Source of the DNA: Pseudolabrys sp. | GTDB taxonomy: Bacteria; Pseudomonadota; Alphaproteobacteria; Rhizobiales; Xanthobacteraceae | Reading direction: 5' to 3' | Length of the DNA: 64,000 nt | Assembly: GCA_019635575.1 (NCBI GenBank) | Contig: JAHBZF010000001.1 | Coordinates: 48,753-112,752 of the forward strand | Part shown: positions 6,485-41,768 of the stretch, one piece after another | How the letters are laid out: the number at the start of each line of letters is the position of its first letter | Numbering within the stretch: the first letter of the stretch is position 1 | Program-made: the position numbers and the translations under genes | Notes under the pieces: model-generated | Told to the model about the DNA's origin: nothing | Database searches by the model: none | What the model saw: the letters and a program-made list of their open reading frames with translations, nothing else

Positions 6485-6615
6485 GCACCGTTAACCGATT
6501 AACGGTGACGCGGACGTTAGTGTTAAATTGATCCGCGCATTTCCCGTCGAACACATCGCATTAGATTAATCGCCGAACGGACAGGCATCTCTTGCCAGGT
6601 TCTCGATCGGTGGCG

Positions 6616-20308: not shown

Positions 20309-21115
20309 ATGACCAAGACCGCCCGCGTCGCCTTCATCGGCTGGGGAGCCATCAATACGCGCGTCGGCGCGCTGCTGGCGCAGCGCAAGACGCCGATCGA
20401 GATCGTCGGCGTCGCGACCCTCGACACCCCGGAAGCGCGCGCGCTGATTCCGGCCGGTGTCGCATTCCTGGGCGAGCCCGATCAACTGACGAAACTGAAG
20501 CCGGATCTCGTCGTCGAAGCCGCGGGCCGCGCCGCCATCGACCGCTGGGCACCGGCCGCGCTCGCCGCCGCCCCCGCCATGATCATCGCCTCGACCAGCG
20601 CCTTCACCGACGACGCGCTGCTGCCGCGGCTCACGGCCATCGCCGAACAGCACGGCAGCCGCATCCTCGTCCCGTCAGGCGCGATCGGCGGCATCGACGC
20701 GCTCGCCGGCGCGGCGGTGCTGCAGCTCGACGACGTGCTGCACCAGATCGTCAAACCACCGGTGGCGTGGAAAAACACGCCGGCCGAGAAACTTCTCGAC
20801 CTCGACGCGCTGCGCGAGCGCACCGTGTTCTTCTCCGGCACCGCGCGGGTGGCCGCGAGCCAATATCCGCAGAACGCCAATGCGACGGTCGTTACCTCGC
20901 TCGCCGGTATCGGGCTCGAGAAGACGCGCGTCGAACTCGTCGCCGATCCCGCGGCGAAGACTAACGGCCACCGCATCGTCGCGAGCGGCGCGTTCGGCCG
21001 CATGGTGATGGAATTGCAGAACAACGCGCTGGCGACCAATCCAAAATCATCGGAATTGACCGCGCTGAGCTTGGTGCGGCTGATCGAGAATCAGGTCCGG
21101 ACGGTGGTGATCTAG
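20309..21115 (+). CDS. nadX: L-aspartate dehydrogenase
   Basis: A 268-residue NAD(P)-dependent enzyme oxidising L-aspartate to iminoaspartate (NAD biosynthesis or aspartate catabolism). The N-terminal Rossmann strand is RVAFIGWGAINTRV, a variant of GxGxxG. The family signature ILVPSGAIGGIDAL is followed by QNANATVVTSLAGIGL, and the C-terminal GHRIVASGAFGRMVMELQNNALATNPKSSELTALSLVRLIE matches aspartate dehydrogenases well, including the catalytic His position. The frame is open further upstream, but the ATG at 20309 fits the domain boundary. The stop overlaps the convergent pgl stop by four bases. No nadA or nadC is adjacent, so the pathway role is inferred. Confidence 0.8.
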   Translation: MTKTARVAFIGWGAINTRVGALLAQRKTPIEIVGVATLDTPEARALIPAGVAFLGEPDQLTKLKPDLVVEAAGRAAIDRWAPAALAAAPAMIIASTSAFTDDALLPRLTAIAEQHGSRILVPSGAIGGIDALAGAAVLQLDDVLHQIVKPPVAWKNTPAEKLLDLDALRERTVFFSGTARVAASQYPQNANATVVTSLAGIGLEKTRVELVADPAAKTNGHRIVASGAFGRMVMELQNNALATNPKSSELTALSLVRLIENQVRTVVI

Positions 21116-21867
21116 CGAACGCCGTCCGGCGCCGCGGCCTCGTCCATCAGCCAGACCTGCGGGCCTTCGCTGTAAGCATGTGTCGCCGGCAGATCGTCGC
21201 CGGCGAAGACGCGCGCAACCATTGGCCGCTTCTCCGCGCCGGTCATCAGGAACAGCATCTCGCGGGTCGACGCCAGCGCCGGAAACGTGAGTGTCACGCG
21301 CGGCACGAACGGAGCGAGCTTGGCTTCATTGACGCCGACGACCCAGCGCTCCCGTTCGTCGAGACCCTCGCCGTGTGGAAACAGCGACGCGGTGTGCCCG
21401 TCTGAGCCGAGCCCCATCAGCACCACGTCGAACAGCGGCTTGCGCGGATCGAGGCGCGACGATCCGTAAAATGACTTCAAGTCGTCTTCGTAGTGCCGCG
21501 CGGCCTCATGCGGATCGCGCAGTTGCGTCGGCATCACATGGATGTTGTCGGCCGGGATCGGCAGATGGTCGAGGAACGCGGCGCAGGCCATGCCGGCGTT
21601 GCTGCGCTCGTCCTCGAGCGGCACGAACCGGTCGTCGCCCCAGAACCAGTGGATCCGCTCCCACGGCACCGTGCTGCGATAGGGCTCCTCCGCGAGCCGC
21701 CGATAGACCGGCTTCGGCGTCGAGCCGCCGGTGAGACAGACCGCGACCCGCCCAGGCGCTTCAGCAATCCGCGCAACGATACGTTTTGTCGCCGCCTCGA
21801 CCACAGCCGCCAGATCGGGAACGACAATGGCCGAACGGCGTCCGGCGGAGACAGGCGCTTGTGTCAT
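21112..21867 (-). CDS. pgl: 6-phosphogluconolactonase
   Basis: A 251-residue DevB/SOL-type lactonase that hydrolyses 6-phosphogluconolactone to 6-phosphogluconate, the second step of the oxidative pentose phosphate pathway. VAVCLTGGSTPKPVYRRLAE and IHWFWGDDRFVPLEDERSNAGM are the two diagnostic motifs, followed by GLGSDGHTASLFP and RVTLTFPAL. It starts 8 bases after gnd, so it is the last gene of the tal-pgi/gnd/pgl set. zwf, which often sits in such operons, is absent; the dehydrogenase that would supply its substrate here is the F420-dependent enzyme encoded at 28.9 kb. Confidence 0.95.
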   Translation of the reverse strand: MTQAPVSAGRRSAIVVPDLAAVVEAATKRIVARIAEAPGRVAVCLTGGSTPKPVYRRLAEEPYRSTVPWERIHWFWGDDRFVPLEDERSNAGMACAAFLDHLPIPADNIHVMPTQLRDPHEAARHYEDDLKSFYGSSRLDPRKPLFDVVLMGLGSDGHTASLFPHGEGLDERERWVVGVNEAKLAPFVPRVTLTFPALASTREMLFLMTGAEKRPMVARVFAGDDLPATHAYSEGPQVWLMDEAAAPDGVR

Positions 21868-21875
21868 GCGATCAC

Positions 21876-22865
21876 TTACTTTTTGGCCGGGCGCGGCGCT
21901 TCGACATGACCGCCGAAGCCCTTGCGCATCGCCGACAGCATCTTGTCGGCAAAGCTCGCCTCCTGGCGCGAGCGGAAGCGCGCATAGAGCGCCGCCGACA
22001 GCACATGGGCCGGCACCGCCTCGTCGATCGCCGCCATCAGCGTCCAGCGTCCCTCACCGGAATCCTCGACGTGGCCGGAATAGGCATCGAGTTTCGGGTC
22101 CTGCGCCAGCGCGGCCGCCGACAGGTCAAGCAGCCACGAGGTAACAACACTGCCGCGCCGCCACGTCTCGGCAATCGCCGCGACATCGAGATCGAGGCGG
22201 TGTTCTTCCGGCAAACCTTTGCTCGCCGCGTTGCGCAGGATGTCGAAGCCTTCGGCAAAAGCCTGCATCATTCCGTATTCGATGCCGTTGTGGATCATCT
22301 TGACGAAATGGCCGGCGCCGTTCGGACCCATGCGGTGATAACCAAGCTCGCCCGCCGCCGCAGGCGCGCCGTCCCCGCCGGTGCGCGGAATGGTGCCGAG
22401 CCCCGGCGCCAGCGCACGGAAAATCGGATCGAGGCCCGCGACGACCTTTTCGTCGCCGCCGATCATCATGCAGTAACCGCGCTCCAGGCCCCAGACGCCG
22501 CCGCTGGTGCCGACGTCGACATAATGGAGCCCGCGCTGCTTCAACGCGGCGGCGCGGCGGATATCGTCCTGCCAGAAGGTATTGCCGCCATCGATGATGA
22601 TGTCGCCGGCGTCGAGCAGACCGGCGAGCGTCTCGATCGCCGTCTCGGTGGCTTCGCCCGCGGGCAGCATCACCCAGACGGCACGCGGCTTGGCAAGCTG
22701 CCGCACGAGATCGGCAAGATCGGCGGCGGCGGCCGCGCCGTCGCTGGCGACGGCATCAACCGCCTTGCTGTCGCGGTCGAAGGCGACCGCCGTGTGACCG
22801 TGACGCAGCAGGCGGCGGACGATGTTGGCACCCATCCGGCCGAGGCCGACCATCCCTAGCTGCAT
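21876..22865 (-). CDS. gnd: 6-phosphogluconate dehydrogenase (decarboxylating), short NAD-type
   Basis: A 329-residue enzyme converting 6-phosphogluconate to ribulose 5-phosphate and CO2. The N-terminal [19 protein letters not shown] is the nucleotide fold, [21 protein letters not shown] the substrate loop, and [19 protein letters not shown] carries the catalytic Lys and Glu. The length fits the short (GntZ/YqeC-like) form rather than the 470-residue enzyme. The residues after the second beta strand read AFDRDSKA. An Asp here favours NAD over NADP, whereas NADP enzymes have NRT, so NADH is the inferred product. It lies between tal-pgi (9-base gap) and pgl (8-base gap). Confidence 0.94.
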
Positions 22866-22874
22866 CGTGCTCTC

Positions 22875-25724
22875 CTAACTTAACGCGCGCGTCAAAGCGG
22901 CTTCCAGCGCCGGCAGGCCTTTCGCAGCACCGCCCTGCAGATGCACGCGCAGCGCGCGGCGGCCGCGCTCCAGCAGCACCTCGAAATCGCCACCCGCTTG
23001 CGCCGCCTTCAATTGGCCGAAGCTGATCGTCGCGCCGGGAATGGCAAGATCGTTCGGATCGTCGGCGGTGATTTCGAGGAACACGCCGCTGTTCGGTCCG
23101 CCCTTGTAGGCCTGTCCGGTCGAATGCAGGAAGCGCGGCCCGAAGCCGACGCAGGTCGCCACATGATGGCGGTCGCGCAACGCCGTGCGCAACTTTTGCA
23201 ACCGGCTCTCCGTCTCCGCGCTCTGCGCGATGTAAGCGAGGAGCGCCGCATAATCACCAGGCTTGATGCGACCGAAGTGCGCCTTGAGCCAGCTTGCCAC
23301 CGTGTCGCCGGCCCCGCCCGCGCGCAGCGCCGCCGCATTGGCCGCATCGGTGTAGAGCGCGATGCCGTCAGCCGCGAACACCGGCGCCTGCTCCGGCAGT
23401 TTGCCGTCGCGTTCCAGCGCCGTGGTCAGCGCCCGCGCCTTGACCTTGCTCGCCTCGACGTCAGGCTGATCGAACGGATTGATGCCGAGCACCGCGCCGG
23501 CAACCGCCGTCGCGATCTCGAACCGGACGAACTCCTGCGCGATCTGCTCCGGCTGCCGCAGGGCGATATCCGCCAGCGGATGCGCTGCTTGCGTCAGTGC
23601 CGCCAGCGCGGCATCGGGCGCACCGGACGCATCGCGCAGCCGCAGATTGATGAAGAAGCGATCCTTGCCATAGGCAGCAGGCGCCGCCAACGGCTCGCCG
23701 TCAAGCGGGATCAACGCCTTGCCGTTCTTGCCGGTCGACTCGGCGATCAACTGCTCCGCCCAGGCCCCGAAGCTGCCGAGCGTCGGCGGCGCAACGATCG
23801 TCACCTTGTCGCGACCGGCCAGCGCCGCTTCGCCGAGCGCGAGGCCGAGTTGTACCGCTGGATTGTCCGCCGGCGGCACATCGGCACCGCAACTGCGCAG
23901 CATCACCGCCGCCGCCTGCAACAGCTTCCCGACATCGAACCCGGCCACCGCTGCCGGCACCAGACCGAACGGCGACAACACGGAATAACGGCCGCCGATG
24001 GTCGGCTCGCCGTGGACGATCTGGCGGAAGCCATCGCGCTTCGCGACCGCTTCCAGTTGCGAGTTCGGATCGGTGACGGCAATGAAATGCAGACCGGCCT
24101 TGGATTTGCCGAGCGTGCCGGCGACAGCGGCAAAGAAATAGGCGAGCAGCATGTTCGGCTCGATGGTGGAGCCGGACTTGCTGGAGACGACGAACAGCGT
24201 CTTGCCGAGATCGACCGCCTTGGCAACAGCGGCGATCTGCTCCGGGTCCGTGGAGTCAAGCGTCAGCAGCTTCGGAAAGCCCGGTTGCGGCACGAAGGTG
24301 CGCGCCAGCACCTCCGGCCCGAGGCTCGATCCCCCCATGCCGAGCAACACCGCATGGGTGAAACCCGCGCTTCGCACATCGTCGGCAAGACGGCGATAGA
24401 GATCGATTTGCTGCTGCGCCTGCCCGACACTGTCGAGCCAGCCGAGCCAGCGCGCTTCGTCTTTGCCAGTCCAGACCGACGCATCGCGCGCCCACAACCG
24501 GCGCACCAGGCCCTGCGCGCGCCACGTCTCGGTGCGCTGCTTGACCTTCTCCGCGAGGTCCGCCGGCAACGTCAACGTTTGCGTATCGACGGCATCGCCC
24601 TGCACCTTGGCGCGCTTGCGCGCCACCGCGCCGAACAGGCTGTCGGCGGCATCCGCAAACAGCCGCACGCCGTCCTGCTCCAGCTTCGCCGTGATATCGT
24701 CGAGCAAGATGCCGGCCTTCGCCACGGCCGCGAGCACGCGCTCCGCCTCGTCCACATTCCGCGTCAGCGTATCGGCCACCACGCCGTGATCGCGGAACGC
24801 TTCCAGCGTCGGCGTCGGCATGGTGTTCACAGTGTCGGGGCCGATCAACTCCGCCACATACAAGACGTCGCTGTAGGCCTTGTTCTTGGTGCCGGTCGAG
24901 GCCCACAGCAGCCGCTGCGGCCGCGCGCCCTTGGCCTTGAGCTTGTCCCAGCGCGCGCCGGAGAACAGGCGCTGATAGTCGCGATAGGCGAGTTTGGCAT
25001 TGGCGATCGCCGTCTTGCCTTGCAACGCCGCCAACTCCTGTTTGGCCTGAGCGGAGCTGGCCGCGGCGATAGCCTTATCGAGCTGCGCATCGACCACGGC
25101 GTCGATACGGCTGACGAAAAAGCTCGCGACGCTGGCGACGCGGCCGATATCGCCGCCCTTCGCCGCGAAAGCCTCAAGCCCGGCGAGATAGGCTTCCACC
25201 ACCTCGCGATAGACCGCTTGCGCGAACAGCAGCGTGATATTGATGTTGATGCCGTCGCCGAGCAGCGTGCGGATCGCGATCAACCCCGGCTTTGTCGCCG
25301 GCACCTTGATCATCACATTGGGCCGGTCGCATTGCGCCCACAACCGGCGCGCCTCGGCGATCGTGCCCTCGGCGTCCATCGCCAGATACGGCGAGACTTC
25401 GAGGCTGACAAAGCCGTCCGCGCCCCTGGTCTCGTCATAGACCGGGCGCAGCACCGCCGCGGCGTTCTGGATATCCTCGACCGCCAGCGCCTCGAACAGA
25501 TCGGTGCCGGACCGGTCGCCTGCGGCCAGCAGGTGCCGCACGCCCTCGTCATATTCCCCCGACCCGCCGACCGCCTTCTCGAAAATCGCCGGGTTGGACG
25601 TGACCCCACGCACCCCGTCTTCCTCGACGAGCCGCTTGAGACCGCCCTTGGCCGTGAAACCCCGGTCCAGAAAGTCCAGCCAGACGGACTGTCCGTGCTG
25701 TTGCAGCTTCACCAAGGGATTCAT
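22875..25724 (-). CDS. tal-pgi: Bifunctional transaldolase / glucose-6-phosphate isomerase
   Basis: A 949-residue fusion. Residues about 1-370 are transaldolase (GVTSNPAIFEKAV; Schiff-base Lys in NVMIKVPATKPGLIAI) and the rest is glucose-6-phosphate isomerase (GMGGSSLGPEVL, VVSSKSGSTIEPN, and the C-terminal active-site region GFGPRFLHSTGQAYKGG). One polypeptide thus links glycolytic fructose 6-phosphate with glucose 6-phosphate and the non-oxidative pentose phosphate branch. The ATG at 25724 follows AGGA; another ATG two codons upstream (25730) is possible. It is first of the tal-pgi, gnd, pgl cluster and would feed glucose 6-phosphate to the F420-dependent dehydrogenase nearby. Confidence 0.95.
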   Translation of the reverse strand: MNPLVKLQQHGQSVWLDFLDRGFTAKGGLKRLVEEDGVRGVTSNPAIFEKAVGGSGEYDEGVRHLLAAGDRSGTDLFEALAVEDIQNAAAVLRPVYDETRGADGFVSLEVSPYLAMDAEGTIAEARRLWAQCDRPNVMIKVPATKPGLIAIRTLLGDGININITLLFAQAVYREVVEAYLAGLEAFAAKGGDIGRVASVASFFVSRIDAVVDAQLDKAIAAASSAQAKQELAALQGKTAIANAKLAYRDYQRLFSGARWDKLKAKGARPQRLLWASTGTKNKAYSDVLYVAELIGPDTVNTMPTPTLEAFRDHGVVADTLTRNVDEAERVLAAVAKAGILLDDITAKLEQDGVRLFADAADSLFGAVARKRAKVQGDAVDTQTLTLPADLAEKVKQRTETWRAQGLVRRLWARDASVWTGKDEARWLGWLDSVGQAQQQIDLYRRLADDVRSAGFTHAVLLGMGGSSLGPEVLARTFVPQPGFPKLLTLDSTDPEQIAAVAKAVDLGKTLFVVSSKSGSTIEPNMLLAYFFAAVAGTLGKSKAGLHFIAVTDPNSQLEAVAKRDGFRQIVHGEPTIGGRYSVLSPFGLVPAAVAGFDVGKLLQAAAVMLRSCGADVPPADNPAVQLGLALGEAALAGRDKVTIVAPPTLGSFGAWAEQLIAESTGKNGKALIPLDGEPLAAPAAYGKDRFFINLRLRDASGAPDAALAALTQAAHPLADIALRQPEQIAQEFVRFEIATAVAGAVLGINPFDQPDVEASKVKARALTTALERDGKLPEQAPVFAADGIALYTDAANAAALRAGGAGDTVASWLKAHFGRIKPGDYAALLAYIAQSAETESRLQKLRTALRDRHHVATCVGFGPRFLHSTGQAYKGGPNSGVFLEITADDPNDLAIPGATISFGQLKAAQAGGDFEVLLERGRRALRVHLQGGAAKGLPALEAALTRALS

Positions 25725-25817
25725 GGCCATCCTGTCCTGTCTGCTCGCGCCCCCGCGCGCCGTCACCGGCGCGCGGAGCCGCAAAGTCGTCATGCGTGCA
25801 TTATCACGCGCGCACTA

Positions 25818-26801
25818 TCACCCGTATTTGCGCACCTTCGGCAATACTTCCTTGCCCAGCAATTCCATACAACGATCCCATTCGTCAAAGCGGAACCGCA
25901 GGTCGAACACGATGTGATCGATACCGACCTCGAGATACTTCTCGACGTCTTTTACGACATCATCAGGGCTGCCGACCATGAACGAGCCTTCGAGATCCTG
26001 CCAGGTCTGGAACGAGCCGGATTCCGGCTTGACCCAGAACTTCTGCGAATTGGCGTTCTTGATCAGGCCGTCGACGCTCACCTTCTTCAACGCGGTCTCA
26101 CGATCGACGTCGATGCTGGTGATCGGGATGCAGCCTTCCAGCAGGCGCGGACGGCCCGCCGCCTTGGCATCCTCGCGCAGCTTCGTCACCCGCTTCTTGT
26201 AGGTCGGCAGCGTGATGCGACCGGGGAACCAGCCATCGCAGAAGTCGAGCGCCCGGCGCACCGAGGCCGGCGTGCCACCGGCGTACCAGATCGGATGCGG
26301 TTTGGTCGCGCGCGGCTTAAAGCCGACATCGGCGTTCTTGTAGTATTTGCCCTCGAACGAGAAATGGTCGTTGGTCCAGGACCGGCGCAAAATCTCCACC
26401 TGTTCCTTGGCGACCTCATCGCGCGGCCAGTCGGTCATGCCGAGCGCGTCGAACTCCACCTGGAAGTTGCCGATGCCGAGGCTGAGGATCAGCCGGTCGC
26501 CGGCCATATACTGCAGCGAGTTGAGCATCAGCGCGAGCAGCAGCGGGTGGCGATGCGGGATCAGCGAACCGAAGCCGAGCTGGATCTTCGAGGTCACCGC
26601 ACCGATCGCCGACAACACGACGAACGGGTCGATGAAGGTGTTGTCGGTGCCTTCCATGCCGTGCGGATGGAATACGAGATGGTCACGCACGAACACCGAG
26701 TCGAAGCCGAGAGCCTCCGCCTTTCGCGCGCCGTCGAGCAGCTTGTCCTTGCTGCAGTTCGGGCCGAAATGCGGCAGCAGCAATCCATACTGGGTAGCCA
26801 T
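25818..26801 (-). CDS. LLM class F420-dependent oxidoreductase (putative)
   Basis: A 327-residue luciferase-like monooxygenase family TIM barrel. AGGAGG lies upstream of the ATG. YGLLLPHFGPN, AEALGFDSVFVRDHLVF, IQLGFGSLIPHRHPLLLA, GDRLILSLGIGNFQVEFDALG, and PIWYAGGTPASVRRALDFCDGWFPG are typical of members using F420 or FMN. Proximity to the F420 biosynthesis genes (on the other side of the regulator) makes F420H2 the likely cofactor. Its substrate is unknown. It could consume the F420H2 produced by Fgd, as many mycobacterial LLM reductases do. Confidence 0.82.
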   Translation of the reverse strand: MATQYGLLLPHFGPNCSKDKLLDGARKAEALGFDSVFVRDHLVFHPHGMEGTDNTFIDPFVVLSAIGAVTSKIQLGFGSLIPHRHPLLLALMLNSLQYMAGDRLILSLGIGNFQVEFDALGMTDWPRDEVAKEQVEILRRSWTNDHFSFEGKYYKNADVGFKPRATKPHPIWYAGGTPASVRRALDFCDGWFPGRITLPTYKKRVTKLREDAKAAGRPRLLEGCIPITSIDVDRETALKKVSVDGLIKNANSQKFWVKPESGSFQTWQDLEGSFMVGSPDDVVKDVEKYLEVGIDHIVFDLRFRFDEWDRCMELLGKEVLPKVRKYG

Positions 26802-26906
26802 AACGAATCTTTCCTCCTGAGGGGTCGTGCCGCGCCTCGGCGGCCGACGGGTTGCTCTTGATCGATTCAGCGAAACAGGCGCACGGCGTCGCCGCCGCGC
26901 ATCCGT

Positions 26907-27818
26907 TTATCTGTCTTCGCGAGACTCGACGCGGTCGTAACGCAGATAGGTGTCGTACCAGTCGACGATCTGCGGCGTGACAATGTCGAAATACTGATCG
27001 TAGGCTTTGTAGTGCGACGTCTCCTTTTGCAGGATCAGCTTCTTCGGCTGACCGGCCTTCTCATAGAGCCGGAAGGTTTGCTCTTCCGGCGTCACCGCAT
27101 CGCCCTCGGTCGAGATGAACAGGATCGCGCGCGGCGCGATCGCCGCGACGAAATCCTCCGGGACGAATTCCATGATCGCGTCGGCGCAGCGCAGCGGCAC
27201 GGTTTCCGGGATGCGCGCGTCGACGTCCTTTTTCACGGCGGTCTGGCCGCGCTCCGGCGTCACGATCATGATGTCCTGGCGCGGATTGACCATCTCGCTC
27301 TGGCCGTCGAGCACCCGCTTCTTGCGGTCGGCGTCGAGGCGCTGCTGGAACGCGATCCACTCGTATTCGCGGCGCATGCTGCGCAGCCAGTCGCGGCCGC
27401 TGGCGAACGCATAGTTGCTGACCACGCATTTCACGCGCTGGTCGACCGCCGCCACATAGATCGGCACGGCGCCGCCGGTGCCGCCCGAGCCGAACAGACC
27501 GATCCGGTTCGGATCGACCTCGCTGCGCGTCTGCATATAGGTGATGGCATTGCGGATATCCTCCGCCTGCCGCTGCGGCATCACCAGCCCCTTCTCGCCC
27601 TCGCTGTCGCCGAAGCCGCGATAGTCGAACACCAGCACGGCGTAACCGGCCGCGGTGAAGCTCTTGTGATAACGCTCATAGAGCTTGGCGTCGTGGAGGC
27701 CGAGCCAGCCTGGCCCCTGCACGATCGCCGGCCACGGGCCTTCGCCCTGGTCCGGCAAGCGCAGCACGCCGTGCAGCTTGCTGCCCTCGCTGTAGAAATG
27801 AACCGTCTCCTGCCTCAC
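26907..27818 (-). CDS. Alpha/beta hydrolase with unusual nucleophile elbow
   Basis: A 303-residue hydrolase of the BAAT/DLH/Xaa-Pro peptidase-like type, GTG start. It has the oxyanion and sheet segments PWPAIVQGPGWLG and YAVLVFDYRGFGDSEGE. The Asp (STEGDAVTPEEQ) and His (KETSHYKAYD) of a triad are present. At the nucleophile elbow, however, the sequence is IGLFGSGGTGGA where relatives have GxSxG; the serine is shifted and glycine occupies the expected site. Activity is therefore uncertain. It lies 35 bases downstream of the IclR gene and 105 bases upstream of the LLM gene, so these probably form one unit. Confidence 0.75.
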   Translation of the reverse strand: MRQETVHFYSEGSKLHGVLRLPDQGEGPWPAIVQGPGWLGLHDAKLYERYHKSFTAAGYAVLVFDYRGFGDSEGEKGLVMPQRQAEDIRNAITYMQTRSEVDPNRIGLFGSGGTGGAVPIYVAAVDQRVKCVVSNYAFASGRDWLRSMRREYEWIAFQQRLDADRKKRVLDGQSEMVNPRQDIMIVTPERGQTAVKKDVDARIPETVPLRCADAIMEFVPEDFVAAIAPRAILFISTEGDAVTPEEQTFRLYEKAGQPKKLILQKETSHYKAYDQYFDIVTPQIVDWYDTYLRYDRVESREDR

Positions 27819-27853
27819 CGGAACCCCCTTGCCTTTATTTTTCTCTGGTCAAC

Positions 27854-28654
27854 TCAGCGCGAGACCACCGGCGACTGCCGGGCCAGCGCGCGCGAAATCT
27901 GCGCCGCGGCGGCGCGCACATGACGGATGAAGGCATCGACCTTCTTCTTGTCGTCCCACATCTTGCCGGTGCCGACGAGACTGATGCTGGCGAAAGCTTT
28001 TCCGTTTCGCGCGATCGGCACCGCGAGACCGACCCGGTTCGCAGCGACCTCGCCGCGCGTCAGCGCGTACCCGGCCTCGCGGATATCTTTGATTTGCGCG
28101 CGAAACTCATGCCAGTTGCTGGCGCGCAGCACGCGATGGATAGTCTCGCCGTTGTCGAGATAGACGGACTTGAGCTGGCGGTCCGGCAATTGCGCCAGAA
28201 TCACCTTCGACGTGGCGCCGATGAACAGCGGCATCGTCACGCCGCGCTCGTAACCGATCTGGCCGCGGAATTTGCCGCCGCGCGCTTCCTGCACGCACAT
28301 CACGCAATCCTTGAACTTGCGGCAAACGATCACGACGCAAGCTTCGCTCGTGTGCTTCAGCAGATCCTGCATGATCGGTGCGGCAATCTGGCTCAACGGA
28401 TCGGTGTGCCGCAGAATCTGGTCGAACCGCACGAATGCCGGCCCGAGCGCGTAGGCCGCGCCGCTGACCGGATCGAGAAACCCACCTTTCACCAGGTTGC
28501 GGACATGGCGGTAGATCGTGCTCGACGACAACCCCAGCGCGCGCGCCATCTGCTCCACCGTCCAGACCGGGCGATCCCGGTCGAACAGTTGCAGGATCAT
28601 GACCAGCCGGCTGGGGCGATTGGCAATCCGTGAGGTTTTAGCCATGTTTTTCAT
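27854..28654 (-). CDS. IclR family transcriptional regulator
   Basis: A 266-residue regulator. The N-terminal winged helix-turn-helix reads MILQLFDRDRPVWTVEQMARALGLSSSTIYRHVRNLVKGGFL and the C-terminal part is an IclR effector-binding domain (GYERGVTMPLFIGATSKVILAQLP). A Cys pair occurs in CRKFKDCVMC. The start is uncertain: ATG at 28654 or 28645, both poorly preceded by a ribosome site. It diverges from fgd and the F420 genes across a 224-base region containing a strong inverted repeat, so it may control both directions. It is clearly paralogous to the IclR protein encoded at 44102-44869. Confidence 0.9.
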   Translation of the reverse strand: MKNMAKTSRIANRPSRLVMILQLFDRDRPVWTVEQMARALGLSSSTIYRHVRNLVKGGFLDPVSGAAYALGPAFVRFDQILRHTDPLSQIAAPIMQDLLKHTSEACVVIVCRKFKDCVMCVQEARGGKFRGQIGYERGVTMPLFIGATSKVILAQLPDRQLKSVYLDNGETIHRVLRASNWHEFRAQIKDIREAGYALTRGEVAANRVGLAVPIARNGKAFASISLVGTGKMWDDKKKVDAFIRHVRAAAAQISRALARQSPVVSR

Positions 28655-28661
28655 TTTGCGC

Positions 28662-28704
28662 GGAAAAGTCAGAATTGTCAAAATGTAAGAATTTTGAATT
28701 TTCC
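28662..28704. promoter_or_regulatory. Imperfect 16-base inverted repeat, candidate IclR operator
   Basis: The left arm GGAAAAGTCAGAATTG (28662-28677) and right arm GAATTTTGAATTTTCC (28689-28704) pair at 13 of 16 positions around an 11-base spacer. The outer GGAAAA and TTTTCC resemble half-sites known for IclR-family proteins such as IclR and AllR. It lies next to the IclR start and about 175-215 bases upstream of fgd. Function is inferred from symmetry and location. Confidence 0.5.
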
Positions 28705-28878
28705 GATATTGCTATACCCGGCGCATCTGCACTAGACTTTTCCACGGCGTCGCGCGGAAACCGCACGGCAGCGAGACAGATCGCATTTGGCGCGTCGCAC
28801 GCGGGAGAAGCGACACCATCACGGATCGCGTCGCTGAACGCCCCCGCAGCAGCGGGTCCAACTATCGGGGAGAACGAC

Positions 28879-29883
28879 GTGTTGAAGATCGGATACAAGG
28901 CCTCGGCGGAGCAGTTCGGGCCAAGCGAACTGCTCGACTTCTCGGTCTATGCCGAAGATGTCGGCTTCGATTCGGTTTTCATCAGCGATCACTTCCAGCC
29001 ATGGAAGCACACCAACGGCCACGCCCCCGCATCGATCCCGTGGCTTGGCGCGCTCGGCGCGCGCACCAAGCGGATCATCATGGGCACCAGCGTGATGACG
29101 CCGACCTTCCGCTATCACCCGTCGATCGTCGCGCAGGCGTTCGCGACGCTCGGTGTGATGTTTCCGGAGCGCGTGGTGCTCGGCCTCGGCAGCGGTGAAT
29201 CACTGAACGACGTTCCGGCACTCGGCATCAAATGGCCGGGCTTCAAGGAACGCACCGGCCGTCTGATGGAATCGGTCGAGCTGATGCGCCGCCTGTGGAC
29301 GGAAGAGCGCGTCACCTTCGACGGCAAATACTACAAGACCGAGAAAGCCACGCTCTACGATCGCCCCGTGAAGCCGGTGCCGATCTATCTCGCCGCGTCC
29401 GGTCCGACGGTTGCGAAGCTCGCCGGTGAAACCGCCGAGGGCTATATCTGCACCAGCGGCAAGGCGCCGGAGCTTTACAAGGAGACCTTGCTGCCGAATG
29501 TGGCCGCCGGCCTCGAGGCCGCAGGCCGCGCCAACGACTCGATCGACCGCATGATCGAGATGAAGGTCTCGTTCGACACCGACAAGCAGCGCGCGCTCGA
29601 AGACACCAAGCACTGGGCGGCGCTGGCGCTTTCTCCCGAGGAGAAGATGTCGGTCGAGGATCCGGTCGAGATGGAGAAACTCGCCGATGCGCTTCCGGTG
29701 GAGCGGACCGCCAAGCGCTGGATTGTCTCGGACAACGCCGACGAGCATGTCGAGCGGATCAAGGCCTATACCGACCTCGGCTTCCGCCATCTGGTCTTCC
29801 ACGCACCGGGGCCGGACCAGAAGCGGTTCCTGAAACTCTATGGCGAGCAGGTACTGCCGCGCCTGCGCAAGCTCGGGCTCTGA
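28879..29883 (+). CDS. fgd: F420-dependent glucose-6-phosphate dehydrogenase
   Basis: A 334-residue LLM-fold enzyme oxidising glucose 6-phosphate to 6-phosphogluconolactone with coenzyme F420. The GTG at 28879 follows GGGGAGA by five bases and gives the same N-terminus as mycobacterial Fgd1 (LKIGYKASAEQF), so the longer upstream open frame is not used. Residues matching known Fgd1 active-site positions are present: Asp37-His38 and Trp42 in SDHFQPWKH, Glu107 in GSGESLND, Lys195 in CTSGKAPELY, the Lys of AKRWIV and the Arg of GFRHLVFHAPG (phosphate binding). EDPVEMEKLADALPVE is also shared. cofE starts 3 bases downstream, so cofactor and enzyme are made together. Confidence 0.93.
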   Translation: MLKIGYKASAEQFGPSELLDFSVYAEDVGFDSVFISDHFQPWKHTNGHAPASIPWLGALGARTKRIIMGTSVMTPTFRYHPSIVAQAFATLGVMFPERVVLGLGSGESLNDVPALGIKWPGFKERTGRLMESVELMRRLWTEERVTFDGKYYKTEKATLYDRPVKPVPIYLAASGPTVAKLAGETAEGYICTSGKAPELYKETLLPNVAAGLEAAGRANDSIDRMIEMKVSFDTDKQRALEDTKHWAALALSPEEKMSVEDPVEMEKLADALPVERTAKRWIVSDNADEHVERIKAYTDLGFRHLVFHAPGPDQKRFLKLYGEQVLPRLRKLGL

Positions 29884-29886
29884 ACC

Positions 29887-30657
29887 GTGGCAGCGCCGCC
29901 GCGCCTGAGCTTGAGCGGCGTACCCGGCATCCCGCTGATTGCGCCGGGTGACGACCTCGGCGCGATCATCGCGGCGGCGATGGGTCGGGCCGGACTCGCC
30001 TGTGTCGACGGCGACATCATCGTCGTCGCGCAGAAGGTCGTGTCGAAGGCGCAGGGCCGCTTCGTCGATCTGACGACGGTGGAACCCTCCGCCCGCGCCC
30101 GCGCGATCGCCGCCGACACCGACCGCGATCCGCGGCTGGTGGAAGTGATCCTGTCTGAATCCGTTAACATCCTGCGCAGCGACAAACGCGCCCTGGTGGT
30201 GGAGCACCGCGACGGCTTCGTGATGGCGAATGCCGGCGTCGACCGCTCCAATGTCCGCGCCGGCGGCGACGAGACGGTCCTGCTGCTACCGCGGGACTCG
30301 GACGGCGCGGCCGCCGCGTTGCGCGCCACATTGGAGGCTCATTTTGGCAAGACGCTTGGCGTCGTGATCAATGACAGCTTCGGCCGGCCGTGGCGGCGTG
30401 GCACCACTGGCGTCGCGCTCGGCGCCGCCGGTATTCCGGCGCTGGAAGATTTACGCGGACGGCCGGACCTGTTCGGACGGGTGCTGGAAGTGAGCGAGGC
30501 CGCCTTTGCCGACGAGATCGCGGCCGCCGCGTCGCTGGTCATGGGTCAGGCCGACGAAGCCTGCCCGGTCGTGCTGCTGTCAGGCTTCCCCGTGCAGACC
30601 CAAAATCTTCCGGCACGGACATTGCTTCGTCCTCCCGCCGACGACCTGTTCCGGTGA
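29887..30657 (+). CDS. cofE: Coenzyme F420-0:L-glutamate ligase
   Basis: A 256-residue CofE (FbiB N-domain) that adds glutamate residues to F420-0 using GTP. GTG start 3 bases after fgd. VPGIPLIAPGDDLGAII, DGDIIVVAQKVVSKAQGR, ESVNILR, FVMANAGVDRSNV and VVINDSFGRPWRRGTTGVALG are diagnostic of the family. The protein stops after the ligase domain. The C-terminal nitroreductase-like domain of mycobacterial FbiB, which reduces dehydro-F420, is absent. Confidence 0.95.
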   Translation: MAAPPRLSLSGVPGIPLIAPGDDLGAIIAAAMGRAGLACVDGDIIVVAQKVVSKAQGRFVDLTTVEPSARARAIAADTDRDPRLVEVILSESVNILRSDKRALVVEHRDGFVMANAGVDRSNVRAGGDETVLLLPRDSDGAAAALRATLEAHFGKTLGVVINDSFGRPWRRGTTGVALGAAGIPALEDLRGRPDLFGRVLEVSEAAFADEIAAAASLVMGQADEACPVVLLSGFPVQTQNLPARTLLRPPADDLFR

Positions 30658-30668
30658 GGATCGAAACC

Positions 30669-31688
30669 ATGGCCACCCTGTCCTCATCTCCAGACAATCG
30701 CCAAGAGAATCGCCCTGTCCTCGCCCTCTCGGGCGGGATCGGCGGCGCGAAGCTCGCGCTGGGTCTTGCTCATGTGTTGCCGGACGGCGCGCTCACCGTC
30801 GTTGCCAACACTGGCGACGATTTCGAGCATCTCGGCCTCAGCGTCTCGCCGGACATCGACACGCTCACTTATGTGCTCGGCGATCTCGACAACCAGCAGA
30901 CCGGCTGGGGCCGGCGCGACGAGACCTGGTCGTTCATGGAGACGCTGGGTGCGCTCGGCGGCGAGACCTGGTTCAAGCTCGGCGACCGCGATCTCGCTTT
31001 GCATGTGGAGCGCAGCCAGCGCCTGCGTGCGGGCGAAACGCTCTCGGCCATCACCGCCGATCTCGCGCGCCGCCTGGGGGCGCGCGACCGCATCCTGCCG
31101 ATGAGCGACGATCCGGTCCGCACGCAGGTCTTGACCGCGGATGGACCGCTCGACTTCCAGCGCTATTTCGTCGGCATGCAATGCGCGCCCGCCGTTACCG
31201 GTTTCCGGTTTGCCGGGGCGGAAAATGCCGCGCCGCATCCGGATTTTCTCGGCGTCCTGCGCGACACGCGCCTGCGCGCCGTCATCATCTGCCCCTCGAA
31301 TCCGTTCATCAGCATCGACCCGATCCTGGCGGTGCCGGGCGTGCGCGCGGCACTGACCGCCTGCGCGGCGCCGATCATTGCCATCTCGCCGATCATCGGC
31401 GGCGAGGCAGTCAAGGGGCCGACCGCGAAGATGATGCGCGAGCTTGGTATCGCCGTCACGGCGGCGAGTGTCGCCGATCATTATGCCGGTCTGATCGACG
31501 GTTTCATCGTCGATCCGGGCGATGCCGCCATGACGTCCCGCGCTCCGGTCGCGATCGACGCGCGCACGGTTCTGATGCGCAGTCTCGATGACAAGATCGC
31601 TCTCGCAACCGCGACGCTCGCCTTCGCCGACCGGCTGGCGCGAGAGCCATCTGCCCGTCGCAAGGGACGCATGATGGGAGCCGCATGA
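30669..31688 (+). CDS. cofD: 2-phospho-L-lactate transferase (F420-0 synthesis)
   Basis: A 339-residue CofD/FbiA that transfers the phospho-acid moiety from the GDP/GPP-activated intermediate to the deazaflavin Fo. The ATG at 30669 has AGGA upstream. Key segments are LALSGGIGGAKLALGL, VVANTGDDFEHLGLSVSPDIDTLTY, the substrate stretch FQRYFVGMQ, and VIICPSNPFISIDPILAVPGV. The 3' end overlaps the cofC start (ATGATG at 31685), consistent with coupled translation in cofE-cofD-cofC-fbiC. Confidence 0.95.
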   Translation: MATLSSSPDNRQENRPVLALSGGIGGAKLALGLAHVLPDGALTVVANTGDDFEHLGLSVSPDIDTLTYVLGDLDNQQTGWGRRDETWSFMETLGALGGETWFKLGDRDLALHVERSQRLRAGETLSAITADLARRLGARDRILPMSDDPVRTQVLTADGPLDFQRYFVGMQCAPAVTGFRFAGAENAAPHPDFLGVLRDTRLRAVIICPSNPFISIDPILAVPGVRAALTACAAPIIAISPIIGGEAVKGPTAKMMRELGIAVTAASVADHYAGLIDGFIVDPGDAAMTSRAPVAIDARTVLMRSLDDKIALATATLAFADRLAREPSARRKGRMMGAA

Positions 31689-32401
31689 TGCCCGCCACAC
31701 GCAGCATCTGGGCTGTCATCCCGGTGAAGGAAGTCACCGGCGCGAAGCAGCGCCTCAATGGCGGCGTGCCGCCACACCTGCATGTGCCGCTGGTGCGCAC
31801 CATGCTGGAGGATGTTGTTGCGGCAGTCTCGCAGGCGCGCGGCCTCGCCGGATTCATCATCGCGACCCTCGATCCGGTGGCGCAAACGCTGGCGCAGCGC
31901 CATGGCGGACGAATCTTCACCGACGACGCCCGCTCCGGTCATACCGGCGTGGTGGCCGCCGCCGCACGCCGGCTGGCGGCGGAGGGTGCCGACGCGATCC
32001 TGCAGCTTCCGGGCGACATTCCTCTGGTGACGGCAACCGAAATCGATCAGGTGATCGCGCTGCATCAACCCGGTCCGTCCTTCACCATCGTGCCGTCGCA
32101 CGACGACAAAGGCTCCAACACCGTTGTGGTGTCGCCGCCGACCGCCGTGCCGCTCAAATTCGGCGACGACAGTTTCTATCCGCACCTGAAATCCGCCCGC
32201 GACCACGGCATCATGCCGCAGGTGGTGCGGCTGCCCGGCATTGCGCGCGACATCGACCATCTCGAAGATCTGATCGAGTTCGCCCGGCTCGGTTCGGCGA
32301 CGCGGACACAAGCCTTTCTCGACCGCCACGACTTCATTCACTGGGGGCGCGTGCGTGCCCACACCTGCGATCTTGTCACCGAAGCGGACCCGACCCGATG
32401 A
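31685..32401 (+). CDS. cofC: 2-phospho-L-lactate (or 3-phosphoglycerate/PEP) guanylyltransferase
   Basis: A 238-residue CofC/FbiD nucleotidyltransferase that activates the three-carbon phospho-acid for F420 assembly. WAVIPVKEVTGAKQRL is the nucleotide-binding start, and LQLPGDIPLVTATEI holds the metal-binding Asp. SHDDKGSNTVVVSPP and FGDDSFYPHLKSARDHGI complete the active site, and the motif GIARDIDHLEDLIEF ends the domain. It overlaps cofD and fbiC by four bases each. Proteobacterial CofC enzymes studied elsewhere can use 3-phosphoglycerate; which acid is used here cannot be decided by reading. Confidence 0.93.
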   Translation: MMPATRSIWAVIPVKEVTGAKQRLNGGVPPHLHVPLVRTMLEDVVAAVSQARGLAGFIIATLDPVAQTLAQRHGGRIFTDDARSGHTGVVAAAARRLAAEGADAILQLPGDIPLVTATEIDQVIALHQPGPSFTIVPSHDDKGSNTVVVSPPTAVPLKFGDDSFYPHLKSARDHGIMPQVVRLPGIARDIDHLEDLIEFARLGSATRTQAFLDRHDFIHWGRVRAHTCDLVTEADPTR

Positions 32402-34788
32402 CGATGCTGCTTTCTCTTGCTGACCGCCTCGCGGATGCCGATCTGACCGGCGACGAGGCGCTGGCGCTCGCGGAATTCAACGACCTGCCGGCGCTGATGC
32501 GCGCGGCTTCGGCGATCCGCGACCGCGGCCATGGCGCGATCGTTTCCTATTCCAAGAAAGTGTTCATCCCGCTCACCAAGCTGTGCCGGGACACCTGCCA
32601 CTACTGCACCTTCGCGCAGCCTCCACGGGTCGTCGGCGCAGCCTATCTGTCGCCGGAGGAAGTGCTCAAGATCGCCCGCGCCGGCGCGGCCGCCGGTTGC
32701 CACGAAGCGTTGTTCACGCTCGGCGACAAACCGGAACTGCGCTATCGCGCGGCGCGTGAGGCTCTCGATGCGCTGGGCTACGCGACCACGCTCGATTATC
32801 TCGCCGCGATGGCGGAACTGGTGCTCAAGGAAACCGGCCTGCTGCCGCATCTCAATCCCGGCGTGATGAGCCGCGAGGACCTCGAAAGGCTGCGCAAGGT
32901 TTCGGTCTCCCAGGGCATCATGCTGGAGAGCGCATCGGAGCGGCTGATGCAGCGCGGCGGCCCGCATTTCGGCTCGCCGGACAAAGCGCCGGCGGTGCGG
33001 CTTGCCACCATTGCCGCTGCCGGCGAAGCGCGCGTGCCATTCACCTCCGGAATCCTGATCGGCATCGGCGAGACCCGGCGCGAGCGGATTGAATCCTTGC
33101 TCGCGCTGCGCGACCTGCATCGTCGCTACGGACACATCCAGGAAATCATCATCCAGAATTTCCGCGCCAAGCCGGACACCCGCATGGCGAACGCGCCGGA
33201 GCCCGATGCCGCCGACCATCTGTGGACCATCGCCGTCGCCCGCATCCTGTTCGGCGAAACCATGAATATCCAGGCGCCGCCCAATCTCGCGGGCGGCTCG
33301 CTGGCCGATATCGTCGCCGCCGGCATCAACGACTGGGGCGGCGTGTCGCCGGTGACGCCGGATCACGTCAATCCGGAAGCGCCATGGCCGGCCTTGCGCA
33401 TGCTGGAGCAGCGCACCGCACAGGCCGGCAAGGTGCTGGTGGGCCGCCTCGCGATCTATCCGGCCTATCTCGACGCGCCGGACCGTTGGCTCGATCCCGC
33501 GTTGCGTACCCCGTCGCTGCGCGCGAGCGACGCGGACAACTTCGCGCGGCCCGATGGCTGGATCGCCGGCGCCGGTCATGACACGCCCATCCCGCTCCCG
33601 CCGGCCGAGCGCACACGCGCCCCGGTCGCCGACCGGTTGCAGGCGCTGTTCGACCGGCCGGGCGACTATTCCGAGGATGATCTGGTGACGCTGTTCTCGG
33701 CGCGCGGCACCGATTTCCTGCGCGTGTGCGAAGCCGCCGATGCGTTGCGCGCTCGCGTGAACGGCGACACCGTCTCTTATGTCGTCACCCGCAACATCAA
33801 CTACACCAACATCTGTTACTTCCGCTGCAAGTTCTGCGCCTTTTCCAAAGGCAAGCTCGCCGCCAACCTGCGCGGCAAGCCCTACAATCTCGGTCTCGAG
33901 GAAATCCAGCGGCGTGCAACCGAAGCCTGGGAGCGCGGCGCCACGGAAGTGTGCCTGCAGGGCGGCATCCACCCGGACTATACCGGCGAGACCTATCTCT
34001 CGATCTGTCGCGCCATCAAGGACGCCGTGCCGGGCATGCACATTCATGCCTTCTCGCCGCTGGAGATCCATCAGGGCGCGGAAACCCTCGGCATTCCGGT
34101 CGCGACGCTGCTCGAGCGGCTGCAGGCCGCCGGGCTTGGCACCCTGCCAGGTACCGCCGCCGAAATTCTCGACGATGACGTCCGCGCGGTGATCTGCCCG
34201 GACAAGGTCAACACACGGCAATGGCTCGACATCGTCGAGACGGCGCATCGCGTCGGCCTCAAGACCACCGCGACGATCATGTACGGTCATGTCGATCGCC
34301 CGCGGCATTGGGCGCGGCACCTCCTGCGCCTGCGCGAATTGCAGACGAAAACCGGCGGCATCACCGAGCTGGTGCCGCTCCCGTTCGTGCCGATGGAGAC
34401 ACCGATCTACCTGCATGGCCGCGCTCGCAGCGGCACGACCTTCCGCGAAGCGGTGCTCGTGCATGCGGTGGCGCGGCTCGCCTTGCATCCGCTGATCACC
34501 AACATCCAGACCTCATGGGTGAAGATGGGTCCGGAAGGAGTCAAATGGTGCCTGCGCGCCGGCGCGAACGACGCCGGCGGCACCCTCATGGACGAAAGCA
34601 TTACCCGCTCGGCGGGTGCGACCCACGGCCAGGAAATGCCCCCGGCCGCGATGGAGAGCCTCATCGCATCGATCGGCCGCACTGTGCGACAGCGCACGAC
34701 GCTCTATCGCGACGCGCCGGCCGAACAACATGCAAAATCACTGTCGGCCGCATCGCTGATCCGGCCAATGACCGATACCGCGGCGTAA
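32398..34788 (+). CDS. fbiC: Fused 7,8-didemethyl-8-hydroxy-5-deazariboflavin (Fo) synthase, CofG-CofH
   Basis: A 796-residue enzyme with two radical-SAM domains that makes the deazaflavin Fo from tyrosine and the flavin precursor 5-amino-6-ribitylaminouracil. The N-terminal CofG half carries CRDTCHYC (Cys63, 67, 70) and the C-terminal CofH half NICYFRCKFC (Cys473, 477, 480), each able to bind a 4Fe-4S cluster. Fused FbiC is the actinobacterial-type layout; archaea have separate proteins. It overlaps cofC by four bases. All functions needed for F420 from Fo upward are thus in one operon. Confidence 0.96.
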   Translation: MTMLLSLADRLADADLTGDEALALAEFNDLPALMRAASAIRDRGHGAIVSYSKKVFIPLTKLCRDTCHYCTFAQPPRVVGAAYLSPEEVLKIARAGAAAGCHEALFTLGDKPELRYRAAREALDALGYATTLDYLAAMAELVLKETGLLPHLNPGVMSREDLERLRKVSVSQGIMLESASERLMQRGGPHFGSPDKAPAVRLATIAAAGEARVPFTSGILIGIGETRRERIESLLALRDLHRRYGHIQEIIIQNFRAKPDTRMANAPEPDAADHLWTIAVARILFGETMNIQAPPNLAGGSLADIVAAGINDWGGVSPVTPDHVNPEAPWPALRMLEQRTAQAGKVLVGRLAIYPAYLDAPDRWLDPALRTPSLRASDADNFARPDGWIAGAGHDTPIPLPPAERTRAPVADRLQALFDRPGDYSEDDLVTLFSARGTDFLRVCEAADALRARVNGDTVSYVVTRNINYTNICYFRCKFCAFSKGKLAANLRGKPYNLGLEEIQRRATEAWERGATEVCLQGGIHPDYTGETYLSICRAIKDAVPGMHIHAFSPLEIHQGAETLGIPVATLLERLQAAGLGTLPGTAAEILDDDVRAVICPDKVNTRQWLDIVETAHRVGLKTTATIMYGHVDRPRHWARHLLRLRELQTKTGGITELVPLPFVPMETPIYLHGRARSGTTFREAVLVHAVARLALHPLITNIQTSWVKMGPEGVKWCLRAGANDAGGTLMDESITRSAGATHGQEMPPAAMESLIASIGRTVRQRTTLYRDAPAEQHAKSLSAASLIRPMTDTAA

Positions 34789-40382: not shown

Positions 40383-41768
40383 TTAACCCGGATAGTGCGC
40401 GCGAGCCTGCTTGCCCCAACCCTTGTCGCCGACGACCTTGCCGTCGACATAGACCGTCTTGCCGCGCACGAGGGTGCGAACCGGCTTGCCACGCACCTTC
40501 TTGCCGGCATACGGGCTCCAGCCGGTGAGGCTGAGGACGTCCTCATCGCGGATTTCGTATTCGCGATTGAGATCGACGAGCACCAGATCGGCATGGTAGC
40601 CGGGCACGATATCGCCCTTCTTTTCGATGCCGAAAATCTTTGCGGGAGCGGTCGACGTCGCCTCGACGACACGCTGCAACGGAATCTTGTTCTCCAGCGC
40701 CGCCGTCAGGAACATGCTGAGGTAGAACTGCGTCGACGGCGTGCCGGTGTGCGCCTTCCAACCATCGGTCCAGCCGATTTCCTTCTCCTCGCGGGTATGC
40801 GGCGCGTGGTCCGTGGCGACGATGTCGATGGTGCCGTCGTTGAGACCTTCCCAGAGGCTCGGCACGTTCTTTTCCGGCACCCAGTACGACAGCGCATAGG
40901 AGCCGAGGCGCTGGATCGCCGACCATTCGCAGCCGAGGAACAGCGCCCACGGGTTGATCTCGCAGGTGACGCGCTGCCCCGCGGCCTTGGCCTTGCGGAT
41001 CAGATCGACGCTGCCCGAGGTCTGGGTGTGCAGGATGTGCAGATGGCAACCGGCCGCGCGCTGCAGCCGCAGCAGGGTCGCGATCGCGGTTTCCCAGATC
41101 ACGCCGTCATGCGCGGCATAGGCCTTGGCATAAGCGAGCGCGTCGCGCTGCTGCCGATCCCAGAAATCCTTTTCGATCACGTCCATCAGCGCCTGATCGT
41201 GCGGATGGATCATCAGCGGCACATTGACCTTGGCGCAATGCTGCATGATCTCGAGGATCTTGCCATGATCGTGCACGCCGATGCCCGGCATGTGCGGATA
41301 GCTGCGGCCGGTGTCGACCACCATGAAGATCTTGAACGCGGCGATGCCCTCATCGGCCATCTTCGGAATTTCGTCGGCAATGGTCGGCGCCGGATTGAAA
41401 TTCCAGTCGACGATGGCGTCACGCTCGTAGATCGCGAACTGCTTCTTCAGCAGCGCCAGCGAGTTCGGCGGCGGCGTCACGTTCGGCATCGCCACCGAGG
41501 TGGTGACGCCGCCGGCCGCGCACTGCTTGGTCGAGGTGTAGATCGTGTCCTTGTACTCAAAGCCCGGCTCGCTGCCCTCGCGATGATGCGAGTGCATGTC
41601 GATCACGCCCGGAAGGATCGCCAGCCCGCCGGCATCGATCACTTCCTTGGCCTCCGGCTCATCGCCCGGTGCGTAGACGCCGGCAATGATTCCGTCGCGA
41701 ATGCCGACCGAGGCGCGGGTTTCGGACTTCGACGTGATCAGAAGGCCGTTGCGGATGAGGGTATCCAT
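40383..41768 (-). CDS. Cyclic amidohydrolase (dihydroorotase / allantoinase / hydantoinase family)
   Basis: A 461-residue metal-dependent hydrolase opening a cyclic amide ring. Metal-binding residues are visible: HSH in GVIDMHSHHREG, a likely carboxylated Lys in GIAAFKIFMVVD, His in LMIHPHDQ and HLHILHTQTSG, and the catalytic Asp in DIVATDHAPHTREEKE. The C-terminal amidohydrolase beta segment (PGYHADLVLVDLNREYEI) closes the fold. Allantoin, hydantoins, dihydropyrimidines and related imides are all possible substrates. The neighbouring allantoinase-like deacetylase and N-carbamoyl amidase support a ureide-type route, with the CobW gene just upstream. Confidence 0.88.
   Translation of the reverse strand: MDTLIRNGLLITSKSETRASVGIRDGIIAGVYAPGDEPEAKEVIDAGGLAILPGVIDMHSHHREGSEPGFEYKDTIYTSTKQCAAGGVTTSVAMPNVTPPPNSLALLKKQFAIYERDAIVDWNFNPAPTIADEIPKMADEGIAAFKIFMVVDTGRSYPHMPGIGVHDHGKILEIMQHCAKVNVPLMIHPHDQALMDVIEKDFWDRQQRDALAYAKAYAAHDGVIWETAIATLLRLQRAAGCHLHILHTQTSGSVDLIRKAKAAGQRVTCEINPWALFLGCEWSAIQRLGSYALSYWVPEKNVPSLWEGLNDGTIDIVATDHAPHTREEKEIGWTDGWKAHTGTPSTQFYLSMFLTAALENKIPLQRVVEATSTAPAKIFGIEKKGDIVPGYHADLVLVDLNREYEIRDEDVLSLTGWSPYAGKKVRGKPVRTLVRGKTVYVDGKVVGDKGWGKQARAHYPG

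Follow-up and report, generated by a model that had tools for sequence, protein, structure and literature searches.

Organization of the fgd locus

We analyzed a 64,000-nucleotide stretch of DNA from Pseudolabrys sp. (contig JAHBZF010000001.1), hereafter the window, which carries fgd, predicted to encode an F420-dependent glucose-6-phosphate dehydrogenase, close to genes of F420 biosynthesis and of the pentose phosphate pathway. The locus is likely to encode an F420-linked oxidative pentose phosphate branch that has replaced the branch started by Zwf. The genes on which this reading is built are listed below, with profile score and family cut-off.

21112..21867, minus strand: pgl, 6-phosphogluconolactonase (TIGR01198, 198 bits, cut-off 124.45)
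21876..22865, minus strand: gnd, short decarboxylating 6-phosphogluconate dehydrogenase (NF007161, 473.9 bits, cut-off 271; TIGR00872, 388.3 bits, cut-off 297.2)
22875..25793, minus strand: tal-pgi, fused transaldolase/glucose-6-phosphate isomerase (NF007080, 1493 bits, cut-off 712)
28879..29883, plus strand: fgd, F420 glucose-6-phosphate dehydrogenase (TIGR03554 equivalog, 469.3 bits, cut-off 420)
29887..30657, plus strand: cofE, F420-0:gamma-glutamyl ligase, single domain, 256 amino acids (TIGR01916, 273 bits, cut-off 180.65)
30669..31688, plus strand: cofD, 2-phospho-L-lactate transferase family (TIGR01819, 281 bits, cut-off 257.45)
31685..32401, plus strand: cofC, guanylyltransferase (TIGR03552, 119.4 bits, cut-off 105)
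32398..34788, plus strand: fbiC, fused CofG/CofH FO synthase (NF006687, 1160 bits, cut-off 1018)

On the plus strand, fgd-cofE-cofD-cofC-fbiC (28879-34788) run in one direction, separated by a few bases or overlapping at their ends. The original prediction, made from the window's letters, had described fgd as fused in an operon with the cof genes; the tight co-directional operon stands, but fgd is not fused to them. Divergent from this string, the minus strand carries, from 28681 down to 21112, an IclR regulator, an alpha/beta hydrolase, an LLM-class oxidoreductase, tal-pgi, gnd and pgl, with only 8 bases between the last two. All core genes exceeded their curated family cut-offs in the profile search, in agreement with the earlier claim that cofactor pathway, Fgd and downstream steps are gathered in one locus. 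The F420 biosynthesis set is complete there (FO synthase, CofC, CofD and CofE, each over its cut-off), and pgl is the genome's sole match to its family (TIGR01198). The cofD start lies near 30654 (GTG) or 30669 (ATG), versus a mechanical open reading frame (ORF) start at 30390.

The Fgd protein belongs to the same enzyme family as mycobacterial Fgd1 and could be aligned over its full length with the solved Fgd1 structures from Rhodococcus (5lxe) and mycobacteria (3b4y). A residue alignment to both, read by eye, showed that His40, Trp44, Glu109, Thr195, Lys198, Lys259 and Arg283 are kept, as the original prediction had held for the Fgd1 active site. These are catalytic and phosphate-binding residues. 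On the equivalog score and the residue alignment, we rejected the reading that the protein is a mere relative within the LLM class. It differs from mycobacterial Fgd1 in that it seems to be the sole glucose-6-phosphate dehydrogenase of its genome.

The closest solved structures of Gnd are short 6-phosphogluconate dehydrogenases, one of them deposited as NAD(+)-dependent Gnd2. Its family labels conflict: TIGR00872 denotes NAD-dependent enzymes, NF007161 is named NADP-dependent, and both scores are over cut-off. The window's Gnd is probably of the NAD type.

Absence of zwf and its place in the operon

A tblastn search of the window with one zwf query found no zwf (best E value 0.15). At the genome level, where a search had been proposed as a check, none was detected by PF00479 or PF02781 in the window's own genome (3.83 Mb, 209 contigs, 83.6% complete), nor by PF02781 in G374, a congener that is 100% complete with 1% contamination and carries the same locus. 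The nearest named fgd locus, with an Fgd 99% identical, is that of Rhizobiales bacterium 64-17 (Alphaproteobacteria, Hyphomicrobiales), whose genome (G422) we take to be the same as G374; it too gave no PF02781 match.

Among 43 genomes of the genus, zwf was found in three only (G319, G363 and, in pieces, G391). In all three it stands after tal/pgi-gnd, with pgl as the following gene in G319. Three genomes from two other genera share the order tal/pgi-gnd-zwf; pgl lies further along in G275 and G226, and the contig of G355 stops at zwf. The operon of G391 is not a plain tal/pgi-gnd-zwf-pgl, since its contig with a zwf piece also has a gntK-like gene close to pgl. Because zwf-bearing congeners read tal/pgi-gnd-zwf(-pgl), zwf is gone from exactly its place in the window, which is what the original prediction had expected of the minus-strand operon. 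The window thus resembles the tal/pgi-gnd-zwf-pgl operon of its own family in gene order and in the short Gnd type, but has no zwf and has an F420-type LLM gene upstream.

It is improbable that the flux is instead carried by a zwf missing from the assembly or by an unrelated glucose-6-phosphate dehydrogenase linked to NAD(P). The genome, in 209 contigs, is 84% complete, and PF00479 and PF02781 would not detect non-homologous enzymes, for example those of short-chain types. Yet PF02781 is equally absent from the complete G374, and the operon site is without zwf in both genomes, the window's gnd and pgl lying nearly end to end. The absence of zwf from these genomes and from its exact operon place supports the proposal that glucose 6-phosphate would be oxidized here with F420 rather than NADP. 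On the best reading, Fgd would be the only glucose-6-phosphate dehydrogenase in this organism and would feed Pgl and Gnd.

Partners of gnd and pgl across genomes

Within the genus, fgd is present in 2 of the 43 genomes, the window's own included. A gnd of the close type was found in 18 of them, accompanied by zwf in 3, by the gluconokinase gene gntK in 12 and by a contig end in 1; the other 2 are the fgd genomes, the only ones where gnd has pgl as its partner, without zwf or gntK. Contig end aside, this gnd always stands with genes that deliver its substrate, so that Fgd and Pgl are what remains for that role in the two fgd genomes. The gntK assignment was over the TIGR01313 cut-off in all three copies scanned. 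Two further congeners (G415 and G392) hold a distant gnd relative only. In other genus members (L160, L161 and L163), gnd directly precedes gntK, and the flanking ORFs resemble dnaN and recF by eye; this arrangement may represent an entry route for gluconate that needs no zwf.

Pgl is expected solely downstream of a glucose-6-phosphate dehydrogenase. We searched for it in 67 genomes: 24 with fgd and without zwf, 38 congeners without either gene and 5 with zwf. It was found in 5/24, 1/38 and 3/5 (G319, G391 and G275), respectively; in the two zwf-bearing genomes where no Pgl was found (G363 and G355), the contig ends at or soon after zwf. The difference between 5/24 and 1/38 gave a one-sided Fisher p value of 0.028, or 0.062 without G374, a near-duplicate of the window. 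All five pgl genes of the fgd-bearing, zwf-less genomes lie less than 10 kb from fgd, in four lineages when the near-duplicate is discounted, and the joint chance of this under random placement of pgl is about 1e-9. The single Pgl among the genomes without fgd and zwf is that of G392 (L218), where pgl adjoins an ORF resembling, by eye, a ROK-type kinase.

Recurrence of the arrangement in other lineages

The flanks of the best 80 of 262 confirmed named fgd loci, 10 kb long at most and often less, were inspected with alphaproteobacterial query proteins, which distant homologs can escape. The other neighbor searches described here, including those around gnd and pgl, relied on queries of the same kind. 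At least one cof gene was found beside fgd in 75 loci, pgl in 4, gnd in 3, tal-pgi in 1 and zwf in none. All four loci with pgl nearby belong to genomes without detected zwf, versus 18 of 45 for the other loci. Clusters of fgd with cof genes are therefore widespread in Alphaproteobacteria (Bradyrhizobium, Roseomonas, Belnapia and others), and only a minority combine a nearby pgl with the absence of zwf. These clusters share with the window the position of fgd beside F420 biosynthesis genes, but rarely have pgl or gnd in the flank, and zwf often lies elsewhere in the genome.

The neighborhood, whose recurrence in relatives had been put forward as a test, does recur in other lineages, but in a looser form. 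In G326, from another genus, gnd-pgl (locus L033) is immediately divergent from fgd-cofE-cofD-cofC-fbiC, and zwf was not found. In Enterovirga (L035), pgl is co-directional with fgd-cofE-cofD-fbiC-cofC and lies downstream of it. In a fourth lineage (L042), gnd-pgl lies about 8 kb from fgd.

The gnd of L033 groups, in a tree of this gene, with three gnd genes of zwf operons from two genera (support 98/95), apart from the pair formed by the window and its near-duplicate; the starred branches require the fgd label to change at least twice. The Fgd tree unites L042, the window pair and the L032/L033/L034 group in a supported clade (96/90), with L035 placed elsewhere, so the association of fgd with pgl may be partly old; the four label changes counted there include one too many, L117 being the same gene as L033. 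The gnd tree argues for separate assembly of the fgd-gnd-pgl neighborhoods. In the genus of L033, one genome has zwf only (G275), one has both genes (G355, 79% complete) and one has fgd only (G326, 85% complete), a series that could represent steps in the replacement of Zwf by Fgd.

The arrangement might also be a coincidence, an F420 operon having landed by horizontal transfer beside a decayed pentose phosphate operon. The rarity of fgd in the genus would fit such an event, as would the Fgd tree, in which the window's Fgd groups with genes of other genera. We nevertheless regard it as very improbable, given that fgd is paired with pgl in four lineages, with the random joint chance quoted above, and that the gnd tree requires no fewer than two distinct gnd partners.

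Observations weighing against the proposed replacement of Zwf

Several observations speak against Zwf having been replaced by Fgd. First, zwf is also absent from 38 of the 41 congeners without fgd. The loss of zwf in the genus thus did not require fgd, and we dropped the absence of zwf, taken alone, as a pointer to Fgd. Since that absence is insufficient by itself, the case for Fgd rests on the operon position and on the pgl and gnd partners. Second, fgd and zwf frequently coexist: zwf is present in 27 of the 49 genomes searched among those of the 80 named fgd loci, and in 11 of the 15 fgd-bearing genomes among 198 genomes of the family. Third, the expected partners are often missing. Pgl of this family was not found in 19 of the 24 fgd-bearing, zwf-less genomes, and no gnd was found in the genome of L035. 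Of the 22 such genomes with a gnd match, the context of gnd was read in 15, and it is linked to gntK in 11 and to pgl in 4. Conversely, G392 has Pgl without zwf or fgd. Fourth, absences are counted in genomes that are incomplete (84% for the window's genome, 85% for G326) or small (only 2.3 Mb for that of L042). Finally, the link between fgd and pgl could be one old gain followed by losses rather than the product of repeated assembly, and the flux carried by a scarce cofactor of low potential may be small.

Genes between the two halves of the locus

Four features lie between tal-pgi and fgd; the three genes among them were missing from the original prediction:

25818..26801, minus strand: LLM-class oxidoreductase, predicted F420-dependent (TIGR03619, 162.6 bits, just below the cut-off of 166.9; Bac_luciferase match)
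26907..27818, minus strand: alpha/beta hydrolase, distant kin of the UilS lactonase (NF047920, 152.7 bits, below the cut-off of 400)
27854..28681, minus strand: IclR-family regulator, divergent from fgd (IclR_C and HTH_IclR over cut-off)
28682..28878, no strand: intergenic region between the divergent gene strings (position only)

The LLM gene was rejected as a second Fgd (TIGR03554 score of only 71.7 bits). Two long plus-strand ORFs (27012-27923 and 27920-28633) were likewise rejected as genes; they have no NCBIfam match and overlap the hydrolase and IclR genes in antisense. Within 28682-28878, no sigma-70-like site was detected. One occurs at 28681-28653 on the minus strand, and because it falls inside the 5' end of the mechanical IclR ORF, the start of this gene is uncertain and may lie later than 28681. 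The stretch 28640-28900 has a mean column identity of 96% with the locus of Rhizobiales bacterium 64-17.

Proposed pathway and fate of the electrons

In the proposed pathway, Tal-Pgi would interconvert fructose 6-phosphate and glucose 6-phosphate, and Fgd would oxidize the latter to 6-phosphogluconolactone with reduction of F420. Pgl would hydrolyze the lactone, and Gnd, probably NAD-type, would yield ribulose 5-phosphate and NADH. The cofE, cofD, cofC and fbiC genes of the fgd operon would supply F420, and F420H2 would probably be re-oxidized by reductases that depend on it, among them the LLM enzyme, whose gene lies immediately upstream of tal-pgi. The IclR protein may co-regulate both gene strings by acting at the intergenic region that separates them.

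Neither of two other outlets was detected at cut-off. Fno (npdG) did not pass the TIGR01915 cut-off in any of 24 fgd-bearing genomes; weaker matches occur, including in the window's genome and G374, and the model may favor archaeal forms. Diversion into the Entner-Doudoroff route was rejected, as none of 29 genomes, these two included, had Edd over the TIGR01196 cut-off, and 27 of the 29 had matches far below it. An npdG/Fno gene over its family cut-off is present in a congener with zwf and without fgd (G319:C1:2572354-2572983, L208). We suggest, tentatively and with less confidence than for the locus itself, that organisms with the window's type of locus run an oxidative pentose phosphate pathway without NADPH, in which Fgd would give F420H2 for F420-dependent reductases and Gnd would give NADH, and that Fgd has displaced Zwf more than once in Alphaproteobacteria.

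Alternatively, Fgd could serve mainly as a generator of F420H2 for catabolic reductases (the LLM enzyme and its relatives), with the carbon returned to the pentose phosphate pathway at small flux. The first reaction would then be unchanged and only its purpose would differ. We consider this quite possible. Homologs of the LLM (76%) and hydrolase (82%) proteins lie near fgd in an Acidobacteriota metagenome-assembled genome (L088), together with an amidohydrolase (53% to the product of 40383-41768 in the window) and Mo-hydroxylase genes, and the pentose phosphate queries had no match in that 21-kb stretch. Because the LLM, hydrolase and amidohydrolase homologs cluster near fgd there, a catabolic purpose is a serious, though not exclusive, rival. 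The lack of an Fno over cut-off leaves no obvious conversion of F420H2 to NADPH, and a review suggests that other producers outside the Actinobacteria have biodegradative reductases that depend on F420H2 (PMC8498797). However, a catabolic role explains neither the loss of zwf from the operon nor the retention of pgl, which in the sampled zwf-less fgd genomes occurs only near fgd. Replacement of Zwf by Fgd remains our preferred reading. The genes shared between L088 (2227-8839) and the window (25818-27818 and 40383-41768) perhaps form an F420H2-dependent catabolic set for N-heterocycles; the amidohydrolase is dihydropyrimidinase-like.

Relation to known systems

The original prediction held that Fgd is mainly described from Actinobacteria and Chloroflexi. 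This is outdated, since a 2021 review (PMC8498797) already predicts it in Alphaproteobacteria, where it lists Fgd with a question mark and says that predicted producers encode it. The word proteobacteria occurs nowhere in the main text of PMC6279831. In Rhodococcus jostii RHA1, the Rh-FGD1 locus is described with fgd beside genes for 6-phosphogluconate dehydrogenase and glucose-6-phosphate isomerase (PMC5352752). The neighborhood of fgd, gnd and pgi is shared with the window. A further likeness is seen on the Rhodococcus plasmid pRZP2, where the annotated order is NAD-type gnd-glpX-fgd-tkt and a tal-like match comes next. The Rhodococcus clusters differ in being plasmid-borne and in an actinobacterial host, and none of the six stretches read matched the alphaproteobacterial queries for pgl, zwf or the cof genes. 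Nothing in them points to a replaced zwf, although no test aimed at this was made. Three of the plasmid loci (L225, L227 and L232) have fgd with pgi, or with gnd, glpX, tkt and tal, and may represent mobile F420-linked sugar-phosphate gene sets.

An alphaproteobacterial Fgd and the position of fgd beside gnd and pgi in Rhodococcus are thus already known, the former as a prediction. No account of Fgd replacing Zwf, or of the present arrangement, was found among the papers listed by literature searches, as judged by titles and abstract openings; both the zwf replacement and the gathering of all parts in a single locus look new. If true, this would place F420 at the center of carbon metabolism outside Actinobacteria. 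It would also open to testing whether a low-potential, non-nicotinamide cofactor can carry the oxidative pentose flux, and where its electrons end up. A natural comparison before, between and after replacement would be offered by Rhizobiales bacterium 64-17 together with the series G275, G355 and G326.

Other features of the window

Three further features lie away from the locus. A molybdopterin S/N-oxide reductase related to BisC/TorA is encoded at 55757-58060 (980.9 bits, just below the family cut-off of 1017.55). An Rfam match to the 5' ureB small RNA family (RF02514) spans 63741-64000 and is cut by the window end. At 6592-12837, an ORF of 2081 amino acids contains about 44 tetratricopeptide repeats.

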